From Cellulosimicrobium cellulans (lineage in GTDB: Bacteria; Actinomycetota; Actinomycetes; Actinomycetales; Cellulomonadaceae), in contig NZ_JAMXST010000001.1 in NCBI RefSeq assembly GCF_024124905.1, forward strand, positions 682,001-746,000: a DNA stretch of 64,000 bases. The letters run 5' to 3'. The notes beneath the pieces are model-generated. The model was not told the origin of the DNA, ran no database searches, and worked only from the letters and a program-made list of their open reading frames with translations. Position numbers and translations under genes: made by a program. Position 1 is the first letter of the stretch. Each line of letters starts with the position of its first letter. Below, one piece after another: positions 9,943 to 50,868 of the stretch.

Positions 9943-11000
9943 GCGACTACCAGAACCCCCGGTCGCCCGAGTCCTCGCACCGCGAGGTCGGGCACCGCGA
10001 GGAGCACGGCACCCTCGACACCTTCCCGGACCCGGGGCTGCCCGAGCACAAGAGCCGCATGGCGGACCGCGACCCGAAGGCGTCGAAGCGCGCCGAGCGT
10101 CAGGTCGCGACGCTCTTCGGCATCTCGGTGATCGGCACGATCGCCGCGCTCGTCGTGTACTTCGTCATCCCGCCGGACGGGACCACGGCCGGCGTGCGCC
10201 TGTCGACGCTCTCGCTCGGCGTCGCCATCGCCTTCGCGCTGCTCGGCATCGGGCTCGGTGCCGTGCACTGGGCGAAGGTGCTCATGTCCGACCACGAGAA
10301 GGTCGACGAGCGCCACCCGATCGCGAGCGACGCGGAGACCCGCGCCGGCGCGATCGCCGAGCTCGAGGCCGGCGCCAAGGACTCGGGCATCGCCCGTCGC
10401 GGCGTCCTCAAGGGCGCGGTCATCTCCGCGCTCGCGCTGTTCCCGCTCACCATCGCCGTCCCGCTCGTCGGGAGCGTCGGCGGCGACTGGAACGTCTCGA
10501 AGTTCAAGCACACGCTCTGGAAGCCCGGGACGCGCCTCGCGATCGACCCCTCGGGTCGGCCCATCAAGGCGGCGGACGTGACGATCGGCTCGGTCGTGCA
10601 CATCATCCCCGAGGCCTCCCAGGAGGAGATGCAGTCCCACGAGTGGATCACGGAGAAGGCCAAGGCCGTCGTCCTGCTGGTCCGTCTCGACCCGCGCGAC
10701 ATCGTGTCCGAGCAGTCCCCTCCGGGAGAGAGCTGGTCGTACGACGGCATCGTCGCGTTCTCCAAGATCTGCACGCACGTCGGCTGCCCCGTGGCGCTCT
10801 ACGAGCAGCAGACGCACCACCTGCTGTGCCCGTGCCACCAGTCGACGTTCGACGTGGCCGACAGCGCGAAGGTGGTCTTCGGCCCCGCGAAGCGGCCCCT
10901 GCCGCAGCTGCCGATCACCGTTGATGACGAGGGCTACCTGGTCGCCCAGAGCGACTTCCACGAGCCCATCGGCCCGAGCTTCTGGGAGCGTCTGAAGTGA
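9939..11000 (+). CDS. qcrA: Rieske iron-sulfur subunit of bc1 complex
   Basis: Carries the [2Fe-2S] Rieske cluster that takes electrons from menaquinol. 353 residues with an actinobacterial N-terminal extension and three apparent membrane segments. Cluster ligands are C278 and H280 (CTHVGCP) and C297 and H300 (CPCH), with C283/C299 as the expected disulfide. The GTG at 9939 overlaps the qcrC stop, so the first codons are translationally coupled. The cluster is a likely client of the Fe-S machinery encoded at 17-19 kb. Confidence 0.95.
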   Translation: MSDYQNPRSPESSHREVGHREEHGTLDTFPDPGLPEHKSRMADRDPKASKRAERQVATLFGISVIGTIAALVVYFVIPPDGTTAGVRLSTLSLGVAIAFALLGIGLGAVHWAKVLMSDHEKVDERHPIASDAETRAGAIAELEAGAKDSGIARRGVLKGAVISALALFPLTIAVPLVGSVGGDWNVSKFKHTLWKPGTRLAIDPSGRPIKAADVTIGSVVHIIPEASQEEMQSHEWITEKAKAVVLLVRLDPRDIVSEQSPPGESWSYDGIVAFSKICTHVGCPVALYEQQTHHLLCPCHQSTFDVADSAKVVFGPAKRPLPQLPITVDDEGYLVAQSDFHEPIGPSFWERLK

Positions 11001-12760
11001 CCACCAGCACCGGAACCGCCGCACCCAAGGCGGCCGCACCGAAGGCAGCCGCGCCGACGACCCCCGCCGGCAAGGCCGCCGACTACCTGGACCAGCGCAC
11101 GAGCATCGGCGTCGCCGTCAAGGAGTTCGCGCGCAAGGTCTTCCCCGACCACTGGTCGTTCCTCCTGGGCGAGATCGCCCTGTACTCGTTCGTCGTCCTG
11201 ATCCTCACGGGCATCTTCCTGACCATGTTCTTCGTGCCGAGCATGTCGCTCGTCACGTACCACGGCGAGCCGGCGTCGATGAACGGCGTGCTCATGTCGG
11301 ACGCGTTCGCGTCGACGCTGCACATGTCCTTCGAGGTGCGCGGCGGTCTGCTCATGCGGCAGATCCACCACTGGGCCGCGCTCATCTTCCTCGCCGCGAT
11401 CGTCACGCACATGATGCGCGTGTTCTTCACCGGCGCCTTCCGCAAGCCGCGCGAGGTCAACTGGCTCGTGGGCATGCTGCTCATGATCATGGGCCTCGCC
11501 GCCGGCTTCTCGGGCTACTCCCTCCCGGACGACGTCCTGTCCGGCAACGGCCTGCGCATCACCGACGGCGTCGTGAAGTCGATCCCCCTCATCGGGTCGT
11601 ACCTCTCGTACTTCATCTTCGGCGGCGAGTTCCCGGGCGAGCACATCATCCCCCGACTCTTCACGGTGCACATCCTGCTGGTGCCGGGCCTGATCCTCGC
11701 GCTCGTCGCGCTCCACCTGTTCTTCGTCGTGCTGCACAAGCACACGCAGTACCCCGGTGGCGGCCGCACGGACACGAACGTGGTCGGCTACCCGCTGTTC
11801 CCGGTGTACGTGGCCAAGGCCGGCGGCTTCTTCTTCGTCGTGTTCGGCATCCTCGCCCTCATGGGCGGCACGATGGCGATCAACAACGTCTGGAACTACG
11901 GCCCGTTCGACCCGTCACCGGTGTCCGCGGGAGCCCAGCCCGACTGGTACATGCTCTTCCTCGAGGGCTCGCTACGACTGATGCCCGGCCAGGCGGAGTT
12001 CGTGACGTGGGGCGACTACACCGTGCCCCTCAACGTCCTGATCCCGGCCGTGGTCGTCCCGGGCCTGCTGTTCACGTTCCTGTTCGTCTACCCGTTCCTC
12101 GAGGCCGCGGTGACGAAGGACAAGCGTGAGCACCACGTCCTCGACCGCCCGCGCAACGTCCCGGTCCGCACGGGTCTGGGTGTCGCGTTCCTCACGGCGT
12201 TCATCATCCTGGCGCTCGCCGGGTCGAACGACCTCATCGCGACGCACTTCCACATGTCGATCAACACGATCACGTGGGCGTTCCGGATCCTGTTCTTCGT
12301 CGGCCCGTGGTTCGCGTTCTGGATCACCAAGCGCATCTGCCTCGGCCTGCAGCGCAAGGACCGCGAGCTCGTGCTCCACGGCCACGAGACGGGCCGGATC
12401 GTGCGGTTCGCGCATGGCGAGTACATCGAGGTCCACCGTCCGCTCGACGAGCAGGAGCGCTGGCTCCGGGTCAACTACCAGGCCCACGAGCCGCTCGAGA
12501 TCGAGCCGGCGACGGACTCGCGCGGCGTGCGCCGCAAGGGCTACAAGAAGGACAAGCGTCTCCAGCGCCTGTCGCGGTTCTTCTACGAGGACCGGATCGA
12601 GCCCGTGACGCCCGCCGAGCTCGCGGCCGCGCACTCGCACGGCGAGCACGACGCACTCGAGGGCGAGAGCCACGAGCAGATCGAGGCCGGTGCCGCGACC
12701 GTCGGTGGTGGGCGCGACCTCGTCGAGCCGGAGAAGGGCGCCGACGAGCGTCGACGCTGA
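10997..12760 (+). CDS. qcrB: Cytochrome b subunit of bc1 complex
   Basis: Di-heme b subunit that oxidises menaquinol. 587 residues with an Ala/Pro-rich N-terminal stretch and the usual eight membrane helices; HMSFEVRGGLLMRQIHHWAA carries heme-ligand histidines of the second helix. The C-terminal cytoplasmic extension of about 150 residues is long, as in other actinobacteria. The GTG at 10997 overlaps the qcrA TGA. A strong stem-loop closes the operon. Confidence 0.95.
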   Translation: MTTSTGTAAPKAAAPKAAAPTTPAGKAADYLDQRTSIGVAVKEFARKVFPDHWSFLLGEIALYSFVVLILTGIFLTMFFVPSMSLVTYHGEPASMNGVLMSDAFASTLHMSFEVRGGLLMRQIHHWAALIFLAAIVTHMMRVFFTGAFRKPREVNWLVGMLLMIMGLAAGFSGYSLPDDVLSGNGLRITDGVVKSIPLIGSYLSYFIFGGEFPGEHIIPRLFTVHILLVPGLILALVALHLFFVVLHKHTQYPGGGRTDTNVVGYPLFPVYVAKAGGFFFVVFGILALMGGTMAINNVWNYGPFDPSPVSAGAQPDWYMLFLEGSLRLMPGQAEFVTWGDYTVPLNVLIPAVVVPGLLFTFLFVYPFLEAAVTKDKREHHVLDRPRNVPVRTGLGVAFLTAFIILALAGSNDLIATHFHMSINTITWAFRILFFVGPWFAFWITKRICLGLQRKDRELVLHGHETGRIVRFAHGEYIEVHRPLDEQERWLRVNYQAHEPLEIEPATDSRGVRRKGYKKDKRLQRLSRFFYEDRIEPVTPAELAAAHSHGEHDALEGESHEQIEAGAATVGGGRDLVEPEKGADERRR

Positions 12761-12951: not shown

Positions 12952-13578
12952 ATGCCCGTCTACACCCTGCCCGAGCTGTCCTACGACTACGGTGCGCTCG
13001 AGCCGCACATCTCCGGGCGGATCATGGAGCTGCACCACTCCAAGCACCACCAGGCCTACGTCACCGGCGCGAACACCGCCCTGGAGAAGCTCGCCGAGGC
13101 CCGCGAGACCGGCGACTTCGCCGCGATCAACCTGCACGAGAAGAACCTCGCGTTCAACCTCGGCGGCCACGTCAACCACTCCGCCTTCTGGACCAACCTC
13201 TCCCCCGAGGGCGGCGGCGAGCCCACCGGCGAGATCGGCGCCGCGATCGACGAGCACTTCGGCTCCTTCGACGCCTTCAAGAAGCAGTTCGCCGCCGTCG
13301 CCGCCGGCGTCCAGGGCTCGGGCTGGGCCATCCTCGCCTGGGACTCCATCGGCTCCAAGCTCGTCACCGTCCAGCTCTACGACCAGCAGGGCAACCTCAC
13401 CCTCGGCCTCACCCCGATCGTCCTGCTCGACGTCTGGGAGCACGCCTACTACCTCGACTACCAGAACGTGCGCGCCGACTACGTCACCGCCTGGTGGAAC
13501 CTCGTCAACTGGTCCGACGCCGAGGCCCGCCTCCAGCGCGCCAAGACCCAGACCGCCGGGCTCATCGTCCCCGCCTGA
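12952..13578 (+). CDS. sodA: Superoxide dismutase (Mn/Fe type)
   Basis: Converts superoxide to oxygen and hydrogen peroxide. 208 residues, full length for the Fe/Mn family. Metal ligands are visible as His in [14 protein letters not shown], His in GHVNHSAFW, and Asp/His in [20 protein letters not shown] lies 7 nt upstream of the ATG. Alanine, valine, leucine and threonine codons end almost uniformly in C, more than in the neighbours, which suggests very high expression. The gene is inserted between the qcr and cta gene groups, so it may protect the respiratory chain; Mn versus Fe use cannot be told by eye. Confidence 0.95.
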
Positions 13579-13822: not shown

Positions 13823-14221
13823 TCAGTGGGCGTGCTGGCCGCGGGAGAACTCGAAGACCCAGCCGACGAGGGCGACCGCGGCGAGCGCGATCCCCACGTA
13901 GACGAGCCACCAGCCGACGGCGAGGCCGAGGAAGACGATCGCGGCCGAGCCGGCGATGGCGAGCGGCCACCAGCTCCACGGGGCGTACACGCCCTGGTCG
14001 CCGGCGCCCTGCTCGATGAGGCCCTCGGGGTCGTCCTCAGGGCGGGCGTCGATGCGCTTCGCCGTGAGCATGAGGTAGGCACCGATCATCGCGACCAGCG
14101 CGCCGGTCAGGAGGATGGCGACCGACCCGACGGGCTCCCAGTGGCTCCAGAAGCCGTAGACGAGCCCTGCGGCGATGAAGAACGGCGTCCCGTAGAGGAA
14201 CAGCTTGTACTCGACCTTCAC
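13823..14221 (-). CDS. ctaF: Cytochrome c oxidase subunit IV (actinobacterial)
   Basis: Small actinobacterial subunit of the aa3 oxidase. 132 residues with about four hydrophobic segments ([37 protein letters not shown], and a [20 protein letters not shown] pair near the end). The ATG at 14221 overlaps the ctaD stop by 4 bp, so it is coupled to subunit I. It is equivalent to M. tuberculosis Rv2199c. Confidence 0.9.
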
Positions 14222-16041
14222 TTCCCGGCCTCCTCGTCCGTCGTGCCCGTGCGGGGTTCGTCGACGATCGTGGTCGTCGTGGAGTCGCTCGCGGCCTCCG
14301 AGCCGCTCAGGCGGTCGAGCGCGACGCTCTTCTCACCGCGACGGTCCGCCTCGCCGTAGACCTGCTCGAGGACGTTCGGGTTCGGCTCGGCGTGGTCCAT
14401 CGCCGCGACCTCGGGGTGGTGCAGGTCGAACGCGGGCGACTCGGAGCGGATGCGCGGCAGCGACGTGAAGTTGTGGCGCGGGGGCGGGCTGGACGTCGCC
14501 CACTCGAGCGAACGGCCGTAGCCCCACGGGTCGTCGACCTCGACCTTGGGCGCGTTGCGCCAGGTCGTGTAGACGTTCCAGAGGAAGGGCAGCGTCGACG
14601 CGGCGAGGATGAACGCCCCGACCGTCGAGACCTGGTTCTCCCACGTGAAGCCGTCCGACGGCGCGTAGTCCGCGTAGCGGCGCGGCATGCCCTCGACGCC
14701 CAGCCAGTGCTGGATGAGGAACGTCATGTGGAAGCCGATGAACAGCAGCCAGAAGTGCAGCTTGCCGAGGCGCTCGTTGAGCATCCGGCCGGTGAACTTG
14801 GGCCACCAGAAGTAGAAGCCCGCGAACATCGCGAACACCACGGTGCCGAACACGACGTAGTGGAAGTGCGCCACCACGAAGTACGAGTCGGAGATGTGGA
14901 AGTCCATGGCCGGGCTCGACAGGATGACGCCCGTCAGGCCGCCGAAGAGGAAGGTCACGAGGAAGCCGATCGACCACAGCATCGGTGTCTCGAACGTGAG
15001 CTTGCCTCGCCACAGCGTGCCGATCCAGTTGAAGAACTTCACGCCGGTCGGGACAGCGATGAGCATCGTCATGAACGCGAAGAACGGCAGCAGGACCGCG
15101 CCGGTCACGTACATGTGGTGCGCCCACACCGTGACGGACAGCGCCGCGATGGCGATCGTCGCGTAGACGAGGCCCTTGTACCCGAAGATCGGCTTGCGGG
15201 CGAAGACCGGGAAGATCTCGGACACGATGCCGAAGAACGGCAGCGCGATGATGTACACCTCAGGGTGCCCGAAGAACCAGAACAGGTGCTGCCAGAGGAT
15301 CGCTCCCCCGTTCTCGGGGTTGAAGATCTGGGCACCGAAGCGCCGGTCGGCGCCGAGCGCGAAGAGCGCGGCGGCCAGCGGCGGGAACGCCATGAGCACG
15401 AGGAGGCTCGTGATGAGCGTGTTCCACGTGAAGATCGGCATGCGGAACATCGTCATGCCGGGCGCGCGCATGGTGATGATCGTGGTGATGAAGTTGACCG
15501 CACCGAGGATCGTGCCGAAGCCGGCGAGCGCGAGGCCGAACACCCACAGGTCTCCCCCGAGACCTGGACTGAACGTCGTGTTCGACAGCGGCGCGTAGGC
15601 GAACCACCCGAACGAGGCCGCGCCCTGCGGCGTGAAGAAGCCGGCCGAGGCGATGAGACCGCCGAAGAGGTAGAGCCAGTACGCGAACATGTTCAGTCGC
15701 GGGAACGCGACGTCCGGCGCACCGATCTGCAGCGGCATGATGACGTTGGCGAACCCGGCGAACAGCGGGGTCGCGAACAGCAGCAGCATGATCGTGCCGT
15801 GCATCGTGAAGAGCTGGTTGTACTGCTCCTTGCTCTGCACGATCTGGATCCCGGGCTCGAAGAGCTCCGCGCGGATCACGAGGGCCATGAGGCCGCCGAT
15901 GCAGAAGAAGATGAACGACGTGATCAGGTACATGTACCCGATCGTCTTGTGGTCGGTGGACGTGACCCACTTGATCACGGTTCGACCGAGGGTCTGACGC
16001 CGAGGGGCGAGACCGGGGATGACTTCGGCCTGCGCGACCAT
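14218..16041 (-). CDS. ctaD: Cytochrome c oxidase subunit I
   Basis: Catalytic subunit holding heme a, heme a3 and CuB. 607 residues with twelve expected membrane helices. The hallmark helix [17 protein letters not shown] contains the CuB His and the cross-linked Tyr region; HHMYVTG and [17 protein letters not shown] supply further heme/CuB histidines. Its ATG touches the ctaC stop and its own stop overlaps the ctaF start, so the three genes form a tight operon. In M. tuberculosis ctaD lies elsewhere in the genome. Confidence 0.97.
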
Positions 16042-16961
16042 CAGTGCTCACCCTCCGTGCTAGCGGGGACGGGGTTCGGGTCCTGGAGGCGGCTGAATCC
16101 CTCGACCGGGATCTGGCCCTCCTGCCCCTTCTCGCGGAGCGCCTCCATCTGCGCGTCGAACTCGGCGCGGTCGACGATCTCGACGTTGAACAGCATCCCG
16201 GAGTGGTGCTCGCCGCAGAGCTCGGCGCACTTGCCGGCGTAGACGCCCTCGCGCTGCGGGGTGACCACGAACTCGTTGGTGCGGTGGGGGATCATGTCGA
16301 GCTTGTAGAGGAACGCCGGGATCCAGAACGAGTGGATCACGTCGCGCGAGTCCAGGACGAAGCGGATGCTCTCCCCCGCCGGCAGGTACAGCGTGGGCAG
16401 CGCCTCCGACGTACCGGGCGCGCCGTCGATCTCCGCGTCCACGGTCATGGTGCCGCCGACGTCGGCGAGGTGCTGGCCGGTCTCGTAGACGTCCTCGTCC
16501 ACGTAGTTGAAGTCCCAGCTCCACTGCTTGCCGATGACCTGGACGGTCATGTCCGACTCGACGTCCTTGTCCACGATCGCGGACATGTCGCGGTCCGTGT
16601 AGAAGAACAGGACGAGGACCATGATGATCGGCACGGCCGTGTACATGATCTCGAGCGGCAGGTGGTACCGCGTCTGGACCGGGAGCCGGTGGTCGTCCTT
16701 GCGCTTGCGGTACGCCGCGACGCACCACAGCATGAGGCCCCACGTGATGACGCCGACGATGAGGGCGGCGATCCACGAGCCGGTCCACAGCGACGTGATC
16801 CGGGCGGTCTGGTTGGTCACCTCCCCGTCCTCGTAACCGGGCAGGAACCCGCGCTGGACCGTGTCGCTGGCGCAGCCGGACGCCACCGCAGCGACGGCGA
16901 CGGCGAGGGCCGTCGCCCGCAGGATGGTGCGCCGTGTGCGGCTAGGGGGTTGCGAGTGCAA
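16041..16961 (-). CDS. ctaC: Cytochrome c oxidase subunit II
   Basis: Lipoprotein-anchored subunit with the CuA electron-entry centre. 306 residues: signal peptide ending in the lipobox VASGC with Cys30, two membrane segments, and the CuA site [12 protein letters not shown] near the C-terminus. The start is an unusual TTG at 16961, supported by GAAAGG six bases upstream; no better start lies nearby. It is the first gene of ctaC-ctaD-ctaF. Confidence 0.95.
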
Positions 16962-17361
16962 GGGGGGCCTTTCACGTCACGTCCTGCCCGAACCCGTCTT
17001 TACGAGCCCAGCACAGGACCTTCGTCCTCGACACACGAAGCCTAGCGCGGGATTCCGCCCTTCGTGCCCCGGAACGCGCGCTGGACGGGCGAGATGCGGC
17101 ACACGTCGCCGCCGGTCAGGGCGGGTTCACCACACCCGCGCCAGGTCTGTCAGATCCTTGCCACACCGACGCTCCGCCCGGCAGGGCGGTACCGTGCCGG
17201 TGGAGCGTCCGGGCTCGCGCCGACGCCCCGTCGCGGTCCGCGCGAGCGCAACGATCCGGCGCCCCGCGGGAGACCCGCGACGCGCCACCCCGGCGCGGTC
17301 GACCGGCTCGCCCGCCCGCGCCGCGCCCACGCGGCCCGACCGCCAGCGCCCAGGAGGCCAT
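16962..17361. promoter_or_regulatory. Divergent promoter region ctaC / NifS-like gene
   Basis: A 400-bp stretch without a credible gene. On the ctaC strand TAGGCT (17039-17044) is a possible -10, giving a leader of about 70 nt that holds a small dyad AGGAC-CTTC-GTCCT (17015-17028). On the other strand TTGCCA (17158-17163) and TACCGT (17190-17195) are promoter-like but 26 bp apart, too far to act together. Confidence 0.4.
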
Positions 17362-18507
17362 GTGACACACACCACCCCCGTCCGCCGGGCCCGGCTCGAC
17401 AACGGCGGGCGCGCGCCCTGGCACCCCCTCGCGCGCGAGGCCTTCGACCGTGCGCTCGACGACGGCTGGGCCGACCCCCGCCGCCTGCACGCGGAGGGTC
17501 GTCGTGCCGCCGCGCTGCTCGACGGCGCACGCGAGGCCGTCGGTGCCGCGCTCGGCGTGCGGACGGAGGAGGTGCACTTCACGCCCTCCCACACGGCGTC
17601 GTTGCACACCGGCGTCGCCGCCCTGTCCGGCGCACGCGCACGCGTCGGCCGACGGGTCGTCGTCGGCGCCGTCGAGCGTGCCGCCGTGCTGCACGCCGCC
17701 GAGCACGGCGGGCTCGAGCGCGAGGTCGTCGACGTGGACCGCACCGGCCGGGTCGACGCGGCCGCGATGTCCGACGCCGTCGCGCGCCCGGGGGTCGCGC
17801 TCGCCGCGCTCCAGCTCGCCAACGGCGAGGTGGGCACGCGCCAGCCCGTCGTGGCGGTGCACGACGCCGCGCGCGCGGCCGGGGTCCCGCTCCTCGTCGA
17901 CGCGGGGGCGAGCGTCGGCCACGACGAGGTCCCCGCGTCGTGGGACGCTCTCGCCGCCGACCCCGCCGACTGGGGCGGAGGTCCCGGGGTCGGGGTGCTC
18001 GCGGTCCGCTCCCGCGTCCGACGGCGCAGCGCGTTCCCGGAGGACCCCGACCCGTGGGCACCCGGAGGGGTGTCCGTGCCCGCGGCGTTCGCGGCCGCCG
18101 TCGCGCTCCAGGCGGTGCTGGCGGACCGGGAGGCCGAGGACGCGCGCCGCCGTGCGCTCGTCGACCGGGTCCGGGCGCGCGTCGCCGAGATCCCCGACGT
18201 CGAGGTGGTCGGCGACCCGGCCGACCGCCTGCCGCACGTGGCGACGTTCTCGTTCCTCTACGTGGACGGCGAGGCCCTGCTCACCGACCTCGACCGCGAG
18301 GGTGTCGCCGTCGGGTCGGGGTCCGCGTGCACGTCGAGCTCCCTCGAGCCGTCGCACGTCCTGGCCGCGATGGGCGTGCTCACGCACGGGAACGTGCGCA
18401 TCGCGCTCGACCGGTCGACGAGCGCGGCGGACGTCGACCGGCTGCTCGACGCGCTGCCCGGGGCGGTCGCGCGCGTGCGCGCGACGCTGGGGGTGCAGGG
18501 CCTGTGA
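17362..18507 (+). CDS. NifS/IscS-fold protein lacking the PLP lysine
   Basis: Class-V aminotransferase fold, 381 residues, aligned to cysteine desulfurases over its full length (LDNGGRAPWHP, ANGEVGTRQPV, LLVDAGASVGH). The substrate-cysteine loop GSGSACTSSSLEPSHVL is intact (C323). The catalytic segment SGHK of IscS is replaced by DPAD, putting Asp203 at the PLP-lysine position, and the PLP-stacking His is Arg106 (VERAAVL). It is therefore unlikely to work as a normal PLP desulfurase and may be a persulfide carrier or scaffold. The GTG start follows AGGAGG with 4-nt spacing; an open frame continues upstream without a better start. The tusA-like gene overlaps its stop. Confidence 0.8.
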   Translation: MTHTTPVRRARLDNGGRAPWHPLAREAFDRALDDGWADPRRLHAEGRRAAALLDGAREAVGAALGVRTEEVHFTPSHTASLHTGVAALSGARARVGRRVVVGAVERAAVLHAAEHGGLEREVVDVDRTGRVDAAAMSDAVARPGVALAALQLANGEVGTRQPVVAVHDAARAAGVPLLVDAGASVGHDEVPASWDALAADPADWGGGPGVGVLAVRSRVRRRSAFPEDPDPWAPGGVSVPAAFAAAVALQAVLADREAEDARRRALVDRVRARVAEIPDVEVVGDPADRLPHVATFSFLYVDGEALLTDLDREGVAVGSGSACTSSSLEPSHVLAAMGVLTHGNVRIALDRSTSAADVDRLLDALPGAVARVRATLGVQGL

Positions 18508-18758
18508 CGGGCGACGCTCCCGACGTGGTCGACGCACGCGGTCTGCGCTGCCCGCTGCCGGTGATCCGGCTCGCCGCGGCGGCGCGCGACCGGGACCCGG
18601 GCACGCGCCTGACGGTGTGGTCGACCGATCCGGCCGCGCGCCTCGACGTCCCGGCCTGGGCACGGATGCGCGGGCACACGGTCGTCGGCGACGAGCCGCT
18701 CGCGCGCGACGACCAGGACGAGGGCGCCTGGGCGATCACGGTCGAGCTCGGCGCCTGA
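18504..18758 (+). CDS. TusA-like sulfurtransferase
   Basis: 84-residue TusA/SirA-fold protein. DARGLRCPLPVIRLA carries the CPxP motif with persulfide-accepting Cys16. The GTG overlaps the TGA of the NifS-like gene, so the two are coupled. In other actinobacteria, as I recall, the two modules can be a single fusion protein, which supports a shared job: sulfur passing from a desulfurase or a low-molecular persulfide to an acceptor. The acceptor is unknown; erpA lies just downstream in the opposite orientation. Confidence 0.85.
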   Translation: MTGDAPDVVDARGLRCPLPVIRLAAAARDRDPGTRLTVWSTDPAARLDVPAWARMRGHTVVGDEPLARDDQDEGAWAITVELGA

Positions 18759-18788
18759 CGTCTCGCCGGGCTCGCCGCCGGGACGACG

Positions 18789-18825
18789 CGAGCCCGGCCA
18801 CCCGCGGTGCGGGTGGCCGGGCTCG
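18789..18825. terminator. Bidirectional stem-loop terminator
   Basis: Perfect 17-bp stem: CGAGCCCGGCCACCCGC at 18789-18805 pairs with 18809-18825, loop GGT. It lies between the converging tusA-like gene and erpA. Confidence 0.8.
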
Positions 18826-18862
18826 TGCGGTCCGGTGCGGCGTGCGGGGCACGCCGGGCGGG

Positions 18863-19213
18863 TCAGCTGAAGGAGCCGCCGCAGGCGCAGGCGCTGCCCG
18901 CGTTGGGGTTGTCGATCGTGAAGCCCTGCTTCTCGATCGTGTCCGCGAAGTCGATCGTCGCGCCCTCGAGGTACGGGACGCTCATCTTGTCGACCACGAC
19001 CTCGACGCCGTCGTAGTCGCGCAGCGCGTCGCCGTCGAGCACGCGCTCGTCGAAGTAGAGCTGGTAGATCAGGCCGGAGCAGCCGCCGGGCTGCACCGCG
19101 ACGCGCAGGCGCAGGTCGTCGCGACCCTCCTGCTCGAGGAGGGTGCGGACCTTGTCCGCGGCCCCGTCGGTCAGGTTGACGCCGTGCGTGGCAATGTCGG
19201 TGGTCTCGCTCAT
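18863..19213 (-). CDS. erpA: A-type iron-sulfur carrier (ErpA/HesB)
   Basis: Carrier that inserts Fe-S clusters into apoproteins. 116 residues with the three conserved cysteines: C45 (GGCSGLIYQL) and C109/C111 (CACGGSFS). GGAGACGAG precedes the ATG. It corresponds to M. tuberculosis Rv2204c, which also lies downstream of the cytochrome genes. Likely clients in this window are the Rieske protein, NadA and LipA; this is inference from cofactor content. Confidence 0.92.
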   Translation of the reverse strand: MSETTDIATHGVNLTDGAADKVRTLLEQEGRDDLRLRVAVQPGGCSGLIYQLYFDERVLDGDALRDYDGVEVVVDKMSVPYLEGATIDFADTIEKQGFTIDNPNAGSACACGGSFS

Positions 19214-49857: not shown

Positions 49858-50868
49858 GTGACGATCGCACCTGAAGGACGGCGCATGCTGCGGGTCGAGG
49901 CCCGCAACGCCGCGACGCCGATCGAGAAGAAGCCCGAGTGGATCAAGACCCGCGCGACGATGGGTCCTGAGTACTCCGAGCTCAAGGGCCTCGTGAAGCG
50001 CGAGGGCCTGCACACGGTCTGCGAGGAGGCGGGCTGTCCCAACATCTTCGAGTGCTGGGAGGACCGCGAGGCGACGTTCCTCATCGGCGGCGACCAGTGC
50101 ACGCGCCGGTGCGACTTCTGCCAGATCGACACGGGCAAGCCGGCCGACTTCGACGCGGACGAGCCGCGCCGCGTCGCGGAGTCCGTCCAGGCGATGGGCC
50201 TGCGCTACTCGACGATCACGGGCGTCGCACGCGACGACCTGCCCGACGGCGGCGCCTGGCTCTACGCGGAGACCGTCCGCCAGATCCACGCGCTCAACCC
50301 CGGCACGGGCGTCGAGCTGCTCATCCCCGACTTCAACGCGATCCCCGAGCTGCTCGACGAGGTGAACGGCTCCCGGCCCGAGGTGCTCGCGCACAACCTC
50401 GAGACCGTGCCCCGCATCTTCAAGCAGATCCGCCCGGGCTTCCGCTACGAGCGCTCGCTGTCGGTCCTCACGCGGGCGCGCGAGGCCGGGCTGGTGACCA
50501 AGTCGAACATCATCCTCGGCATGGGCGAGACGATCGCGGAGGCCAAGGAGGCGCTGCAGGACCTGCACGACGCAGGCTGCGACCTCGTGACGATCACGCA
50601 GTACCTGCGCCCGTCGCTGCGCCACCACCCGGTGGACCGGTGGGTCAAGCCCGAGGAGTTCGTCGAGCTGTCCGACGCCGCGGAGGAGATCGGCTTCCTC
50701 GGCGTCATGTCCGGCCCGCTCGTACGGTCGTCCTACCGCGCGGGACGCCTGTGGGGCCAGGCCATGACACGCCGCGGCATGGAGATCCCGGCGGCTCTCG
50801 CGCACCTCGCCGAGCCGACGACGTCCCGCCAGGAGGCCGCGAGCCTGCTGGCCCGTTCGCCCCACTAG
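49858..50868 (+). CDS. lipA: Lipoyl synthase
   Basis: Radical-SAM enzyme that inserts two sulfurs into octanoyl chains, sacrificing an auxiliary cluster. 336 residues with auxiliary-cluster cysteines C55, C60 and C66 ([12 protein letters not shown]) and SAM-cluster cysteines C81, C85 and C88 (CTRRCDFC). The conserved end RSSYRAG holds the final cluster ligand Ser. The GTG follows GGGAGACACCC. Needs Fe-S carrier proteins such as ErpA. Confidence 0.97.

Follow-up and report, generated by a model that had tools for sequence, protein, structure and literature searches.

The desulfurase homologue and its neighbours

The window, a stretch of 64,000 nucleotides from Cellulosimicrobium cellulans, carries a cysteine-desulfurase homologue (P0001) followed by a TusA-like gene (P0002). 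The pair and the features around it are as follows.

10997-12760: qcrB, in the oxidase cluster
12952-13578, plus strand: open reading frame for an Fe/Mn superoxide dismutase, within the oxidase gene cluster between qcrB and ctaF
13823-14221, strand opposite to the pair: ctaF
16041..16961, minus strand: ctaC (cytochrome c oxidase subunit II; Pfam COX2), a divergent neighbour conserved at most of the class's loci inspected
17362..18507, plus strand: lysine-less cysteine-desulfurase homologue P0001 (a pseudo-desulfurase), 381 aa, GTG start
17677..17679, plus strand: codon of Arg106, at the position of the PLP-stacking His by alignment
17968..17970, plus strand: codon of Asp203, at the position of the PLP lysine (DPADWGG against SGHKLGG of an active-type paralogue in the same genome)
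18313..18351, plus strand: class I cysteine loop GSGSACTSSSLEP of P0001, holding Cys323 (codon 18328-18330)
18504..18758, plus strand: TusA-like sulfur carrier P0002, 84 aa, with a CPLP motif and C16 as sole cysteine; Pfam TusA
18863..19213, minus strand: erpA-like A-type Fe-S carrier (Pfam Fe-S_biosyn), a convergent neighbour conserved at most of the class's loci inspected
49858-50868: LipA-like open reading frame, about 31 kb from the pair

A sequence-only reading had placed the pair at 17362..18758, with an overlap and the carrier cysteine at C16, all of which is correct: the two frames share the 4 bp GTGA, and P0001 has AGGAGG upstream of its GTG at 17362 and a stop codon at 18505-18507. 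Its assignment of Arg106, Asp203 and C323 to the PLP-stacking His, the PLP lysine and the persulfide cysteine was confirmed by alignment with solved desulfurases and with the genome's own SGHK paralogue. Of the neighbours it had named, the oxidase (as CtaC, CtaD and CtaF), an ErpA-type protein, NadA and the Rieske protein (QcrA) were all found in the window, with erpA, ctaC, ctaD and ctaF on the strand opposite to the pair; the placing of the pair next to lipA was overstated, given the distance. A scan for promoters and terminators over 16900-19000 found none.

Of the representatives, 77 have flanks of 3 kb or more on each side. In 74 of them ctaC is encoded on the strand opposite to the desulfurase gene, in 70 an ErpA-type gene likewise, and in 61 TusA on the desulfurase strand itself, an arrangement that marks the family members as positional orthologues. 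In L098 (Streptomyces), L093 (Nocardioides) and the lysine-less L039, the genes for TusA and ErpA are separated by a PfkB-family kinase gene on the opposite strand, for which the window locus has no space; in L025 (genome G028) the pair is apparently inverted relative to ctaC and erpA.

P0001 has the class V aminotransferase domain of fold type I and an SSGSAC-type cysteine loop as in class I desulfurases (IscS/NifS), for which SSGSACTS is given as the loop signature (PMC8300815, in excerpt). It has no PLP-forming lysine, with Asp203 in its place and 0 lysines among 381 residues, and carries Arg106, His77 and Asp200 where lysine-keeping relatives have the stacking His and the phosphate-site Gly and Ser; Cys323 is its single cysteine. 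A lysine elsewhere in the chain, named beforehand as the observation that would overturn the claim that no internal aldimine can form, was looked for, and the count of zero rules out such an aldimine. P0001 scores below the NCBIfam cut-offs for NifS (194.7 against 530.75) and IscS (127.2 against 548), a weak test, as the SGHK paralogue L051 also falls below the NifS cut-off (388.5); its identity to the IscS-like paralogue of its own genome is about 38-41%. The predicted model is confident overall and low in the cysteine loop (mean pLDDT 56 over residues 321-330), as expected of a mobile loop. A Foldseek search against BFVD gave 27 matches at E <= 0.001, and all but one or two of the named ones are NifS-like or other proteins of the PLP fold. 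We read P0001 as a pseudoenzyme whose ancestor was a cysteine desulfurase of class I (IscS/NifS-type), presumably dependent on PLP. A role in DNA phosphorothioation was considered and dropped: the PADLOC models of SspA and DndA match at E 1.3e-52 and 6.8e-51, as they should for any relative, and the score is below the curated DndA cut-off (130.8 against 480).

P0002 passes Pfam TusA (62.7 bits, cut-off 28.6), retains C16-P17, contains no lysine and one cysteine, and was the only PF01206 match found in a search of the genome. It lies below the NCBIfam TusA equivalog cut-off (39.9 against 78); the sequence assigns it to the TusA family, and its equivalence to the E. coli TusA of tRNA modification stays putative.

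Distribution and ancestry of the lysine loss

In the close-relative set, 56 of 59 matched in some way, and the family was separated from the IscS paralogue by score. The class-wide search matched 308 of 394 genomes at 1e-60, a threshold that paralogues also pass; within the window's order, a threshold of 1e-68 was passed by 110 of the 396 genomes (7 of them below 250 bits) and missed by 286. The 213 loci with a complete family sequence include 27 that repeat genes, leaving 186 distinct sequences (the incomplete L041 and L045 were dropped), from which 119 representatives at less than 80% identity were taken, 37 lysine-keeping and 82 lysine-less.

Cys323 is present in all 186 distinct sequences. 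Position 203 is Asp in 89, Lys in 65, Ser in 17, Ala in 8, Thr in 4, and Glu, His and Gly in one each, so that the PLP lysine is absent from 121. The sequence-only reading had asked whether the loss is family-wide, and the answer divides by order. Lysine occurs in none of the 78 sequences from the window's own genome, genus, family and order and in none of 38 Micrococcales records, against 30 of 31 from other orders of the class and 32 of 33 records from Kitasatosporales, Micromonosporales, Propionibacteriales, Frankiales, Streptosporangiales and Nanopelagicales, where each of these sets may contain close strains of one another; it is absent from one record placed only to Actinomycetales, and five unplaced records comprise three with and two without it. 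Homologues that keep the lysine at this locus, which had been named as a refutation, do exist (SAHK, 65 of 186), and they belong to other orders, which identifies the lysine-less form as the derived state. Two sequences outside the order also have no Lys203, L106 of Nocardioides sp. AX2bis (His) and L222 of genome G264 (Ala); in both the lysine was lost in isolation with His106 still in place, and they are possibly earlier stages of the same decay. Lysine is missing from the whole aligned protein in 64 of the 82 lysine-less representatives.

In trees built without the pocket columns and without L046 and L194, two long lysine-less rows, 78 lysine-less rows form one clade with support 95, the two exceptions standing apart, and the lysine label changes 3 times, against a mean of 34 in shuffles. 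With L046 and L194 included, 4 changes were needed and the outgroup root fell inside the lysine-less group; this first outgroup-rooted placement accompanied the long row L046, and since the clade is clean without these two rows, it was read as long-branch attraction and rejected. A smaller rooted tree of 50 random family rows nests the lysine-less clade among the keepers with support 89, near Nocardioides and Kribbella, whose keepers, nearest to the clade, have already lost Gln183. This nesting makes the lysine most likely ancestral, and the sequences are most likely explained by one main loss of the PLP lysine, in the ancestor of the window's order.

For 12 genomes of the order, chosen for absent or paralogue-like best scores, the locus was read directly. 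In 10, the interval from ctaC to erpA is at most 1.3 kb and a relative of the pair was not detected in it, although in four of these the gap of 0.9-1.3 kb would be enough for another gene; the other two have no ctaC in the 1.5 kb read. In those 10 genomes, the lysine-less protein is dispensable. Two further loci depart from the usual pattern. Genome G555 has two lysine-less copies, one near erpA with no TusA and one elsewhere with a TusA-like gene and a long branch (L193, L194). The copy of the record Cellulosimicrobium cellulans DE0111 (L080) shares only 62% identity with that of the window, has no TusA beside it and falls in a group with Cellulomonas denverensis. In this it differs from the other Cellulosimicrobium records, and it reads as either a misnamed record or a swapped gene.

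Pocket, cysteine loop and TusA after the loss

Residues conserved in the 37 keepers and lost in the 82 lysine-less representatives are Thr74, Gly77, His106, Ser107, His155, Ser200, Ala201, Lys203 and Ser348, together with seven others. Asp180, Glu156, Arg346 and Cys323 are invariant in both groups; Asn154 is invariant among the lysine-less and replaced by Ser in 4 of the 37 keepers, and Gln183 is retained in just 20 keepers, which are thus themselves not textbook enzymes. Columns contacting PLP were assigned from the contacts in E. coli IscS, where the residue at Asp180 contacts the pyridine nitrogen.

For a retention test, the 122 columns at least 90% conserved in keepers were scored as kept when at least 80% conserved in the lysine-less group. 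One of 7 columns of the PLP set was kept (1 of 6 without Lys203), 17 of 18 of the cysteine loop, and 70 of 97 others; by Fisher's test without Lys203, the PLP set differs from the rest (p 0.011) and the loop from the PLP set (p 0.0008), where the PLP set was named after the list of lost residues had been seen and was not blind to it. The loop did not differ significantly from all other columns (p 0.07). This pattern of loss and retention fits selection for the cysteine loop and a docking surface, not for PLP chemistry. Covariation between positions 106 and 203 was set aside; Arg106 accompanies Asp203 in 53 of 53 rows, with too few independent pairs for a test.

The same residues bear on whether P0001 might still bind PLP without a Schiff base and catalyse with another base. 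Invariance of Asp180, Asn154 and Arg346 in the lysine-less group would suit such an enzyme, but with the phosphate-site residues Gly77 and Ser200, the stacking His106 and Lys203 all changed, and with zero lysines in the chain, we regard it as highly improbable; Archaeoglobus fulgidus IscS, with fewer losses, is reported to be inactive (PMC7585200, in excerpt).

Selection was estimated by a simple counting method, the window genus being represented by 14 same-genus orthologues. There the desulfurase homologue has a median dN/dS of 0.17 (91 pairs), next to 0.25 for TusA (66 pairs), 0.223 for ctaC (91) and 0.08 for erpA (89). P0001 is under purifying selection in the genus, which, with the cysteine found in every distinct sequence, bears out the earlier claim that the protein is maintained. 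An artefact or pseudogene limited to the strain is ruled out by this value and by the presence of both Arg106 and Asp203 in every orthologue read from the genus. The constraint on the lysine-less protein is not uniformly strong: in lysine-less Demequina the desulfurase homologue stands at 0.224, against 0.092 for ctaC and 0.071 for erpA. Among keepers, the values are 0.12 for Kribbella and 0.32 for the Streptomyces/Kitasatospora type.

The P0001/P0002 coupling is widespread. An in-frame [AG]TGA overlap is kept in 75 of 94 unfused pairs of the non-redundant set, which, together with the 121 lysine-less sequences, takes the observation beyond chance. TusA is adjacent in 36 of 37 keeper representatives (3 fused) and 62 of 82 lysine-less ones (1 fused), and the adjacent copy retains its cysteine in 36 of 36 and 61 of 62 cases, respectively; Asp42 and Asp48, the equivalents of Asp45 and Asp51 (PMC2854127, in excerpt), are retained in every copy (36 of 36, 62 of 62). 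Fusions at this locus, which the sequence-only reading had suggested looking for, exist: all six named Streptomyces and Kitasatospora members are single chains (domains checked for L098), and the lysine-less L195 is a natural fusion of 486 aa with no lysine, whose predicted model has a pTM of 0.79 and a low-confidence linker.

The proposed coupling to TusA holds for those 62 lysine-less representatives and fails for the other 20, which have no TusA next door and still have Cys323 (20 of 20); in 16 of these loci erpA follows after an aligned gap of 172 bp or less, which leaves no room for a tusA gene. TusA adjacency changes about 10 times on the tree, never with a loss of Cys323. TusA can therefore not be the only reason for the cysteine, and a relay serving TusA alone is weakened. 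Conservation of the TusA-docking helix, tried as a test of the partnership, was uninformative, as Arg47, Arg57 and Arg220 are present with or without TusA. In the Demequina-type genomes G044, G482, G684 and G555, a TusA domain forms part of open frames, about 850-910 aa long, at other places in the genome, and in the first three of these TusA is gone from beside the desulfurase.

The tally of losses could also suggest a relic, an enzyme no longer needed whose cysteine loop persists by inertia: one main loss of the lysine was followed by the changes in TusA adjacency, a match is absent from the majority of the order's genomes, and the Demequina protein is less constrained than its neighbours. 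Against this stand the dN/dS of the window genus, below that of neighbouring ctaC by the same method, the universal Cys323 amid changed pocket residues, and the 4-bp coupling of most unfused pairs, so that we consider a relic improbable.

Possible roles of the lysine-less protein

The nearest known cases are A. fulgidus IscS (PDB 4eb5, 4eb7 and 4hvk; D199K mutant 4r5f) and Methanosarcina acetivorans IscS1, the two sources of lysine-less IscS described; the former is reported to have no desulfurase activity, its cysteine being a ligand to the [2Fe-2S] cluster of IscU (PMC7585200, in excerpt). It shares the Lys-to-Asp change and the fold with P0001, but its pocket still has His and Ser, a Leu takes the place of the family's invariant Arg346, and the partner reported for it is IscU rather than TusA. 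In a quick tree with 50 family rows it groups with the IscS outgroup, the branch between outgroup and family having support 100; a common origin of the two lysine-less states is thus ruled out, and the losses are independent.

By analogy, P0001 could be a scaffold for cluster assembly, in which Cys323 would be a ligand to an Fe-S cluster on SufU, ErpA or another partner and would carry no sulfur. Such a role would account for a cysteine that outlives TusA and would suit the ErpA-type carrier near most of the loci, besides the precedent itself. It leaves the coupling and fusion to TusA unexplained, the archaeal protein is not close kin, and no IscU or SufU gene was found at the P0001 locus, the single PF01592 match of the genome sitting beside SufS; we think a scaffold unlikely.

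In E. coli IscS (3lvj), PLP is bound on Lys206, and in the dimer a TusA docked on one subunit looks towards the Cys328 loop of its partner subunit (PMC2854127, in excerpt); its docking helix has Trp45 and Glu49 where the alignment gives Arg47 and Ala51 in P0001. This geometry would allow P0001 to act as a regulatory subunit of a heterodimer, pairing with an active IscS-like protein or SufS, steering the flow of sulfur and offering its cysteine loop in trans. The kept fold and the other desulfurase genes of the genome agree with it; the interaction is purely hypothetical and P0001 is distant in sequence from the IscS-like paralogue, which leaves the idea rather doubtful.

The lysine-keeping orthologues at the same locus, in Kribbella, Nocardioides and Micromonosporaceae and, fused to TusA, in Streptomyces and Kitasatospora, share with P0001 the synteny, the cysteine loop, Arg346 and TusA, and differ in keeping a SAHKWGGP-type motif and His106, by which they are presumably active. 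P0001 goes back to a class I desulfurase of the kind that other orders of the Actinomycetes have between ctaC and erpA, either coupled to TusA or fused with it. When the window's order arose, its ancestor lost the PLP lysine, and constraint was lifted from the part of the pocket that serves phosphate binding, stacking and the Schiff base, while the mobile cysteine loop, the substrate-side Asn154 and Arg346, Asp180 and the fold were retained. Cys323 may then be charged by an outside donor (the cell's SufS, an IscS-type desulfurase or a small persulfide), and its sulfur may pass to Cys16 of TusA where TusA is present, perhaps to other acceptors, for a product presumed to need it. Candidate donors encoded in the genome are SufS (together with SufU), another SufS-like protein and, with MnmA, an IscS-like protein, so that Fe-S cluster assembly and tRNA thiolation probably draw their sulfur from elsewhere than P0001.

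A persulfide relay or docking platform is the role we favour for P0001, with a little less confidence than would let us call it probable. Absence from most genomes of the order and the Demequina values count against a relay, and the invariant Asp180 and Arg346, on the PLP and substrate side, against a mere cysteine carrier, which has no obvious need of them. Of the original proposal of a sulfur carrier or scaffold rather than an enzyme, the loss of the aldimine, the maintenance and the usual TusA partner stand; its version as a relay to TusA only is the part weakened by the loci that have no TusA.

Since a bare relay does not explain the invariance of Arg346, Asn154 and Asp180, there is room for a bound small persulfide. 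These residues and Cys323, with the newly favoured Arg106 and Asp200/Asp203, might bind such a molecule by its carboxylate, and P0001 would then be a PLP-free transpersulfidase, its half-pocket holding a small persulfide such as cysteine persulfide, whose sulfane sulfur would move directly to Cys323 and on to TusA. We rate this as quite unlikely; if true, thiol exchange would have replaced cofactor chemistry in a desulfurase fold throughout a bacterial order.

Compared with the archaeal lysine-less IscS, the present case is new in being independent and bacterial, in extending across the members of the order read, and in its association with TusA. The literature searched yielded no publication about the pairing of desulfurase and TusA in actinobacteria, a module that lies beside the aa3 oxidase genes in many Actinomycetes. 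The locus amounts to a natural experiment on the scale of an order: a PLP enzyme has given up its cofactor site and kept the sulfur-handling cysteine and, usually, the carrier partner. With keepers and lysine-less orthologues in one and the same gene neighbourhood, and with fusions of both kinds, carrier, scaffold and partner roles can be separated from catalysis, which is the question posed by A. fulgidus IscS.
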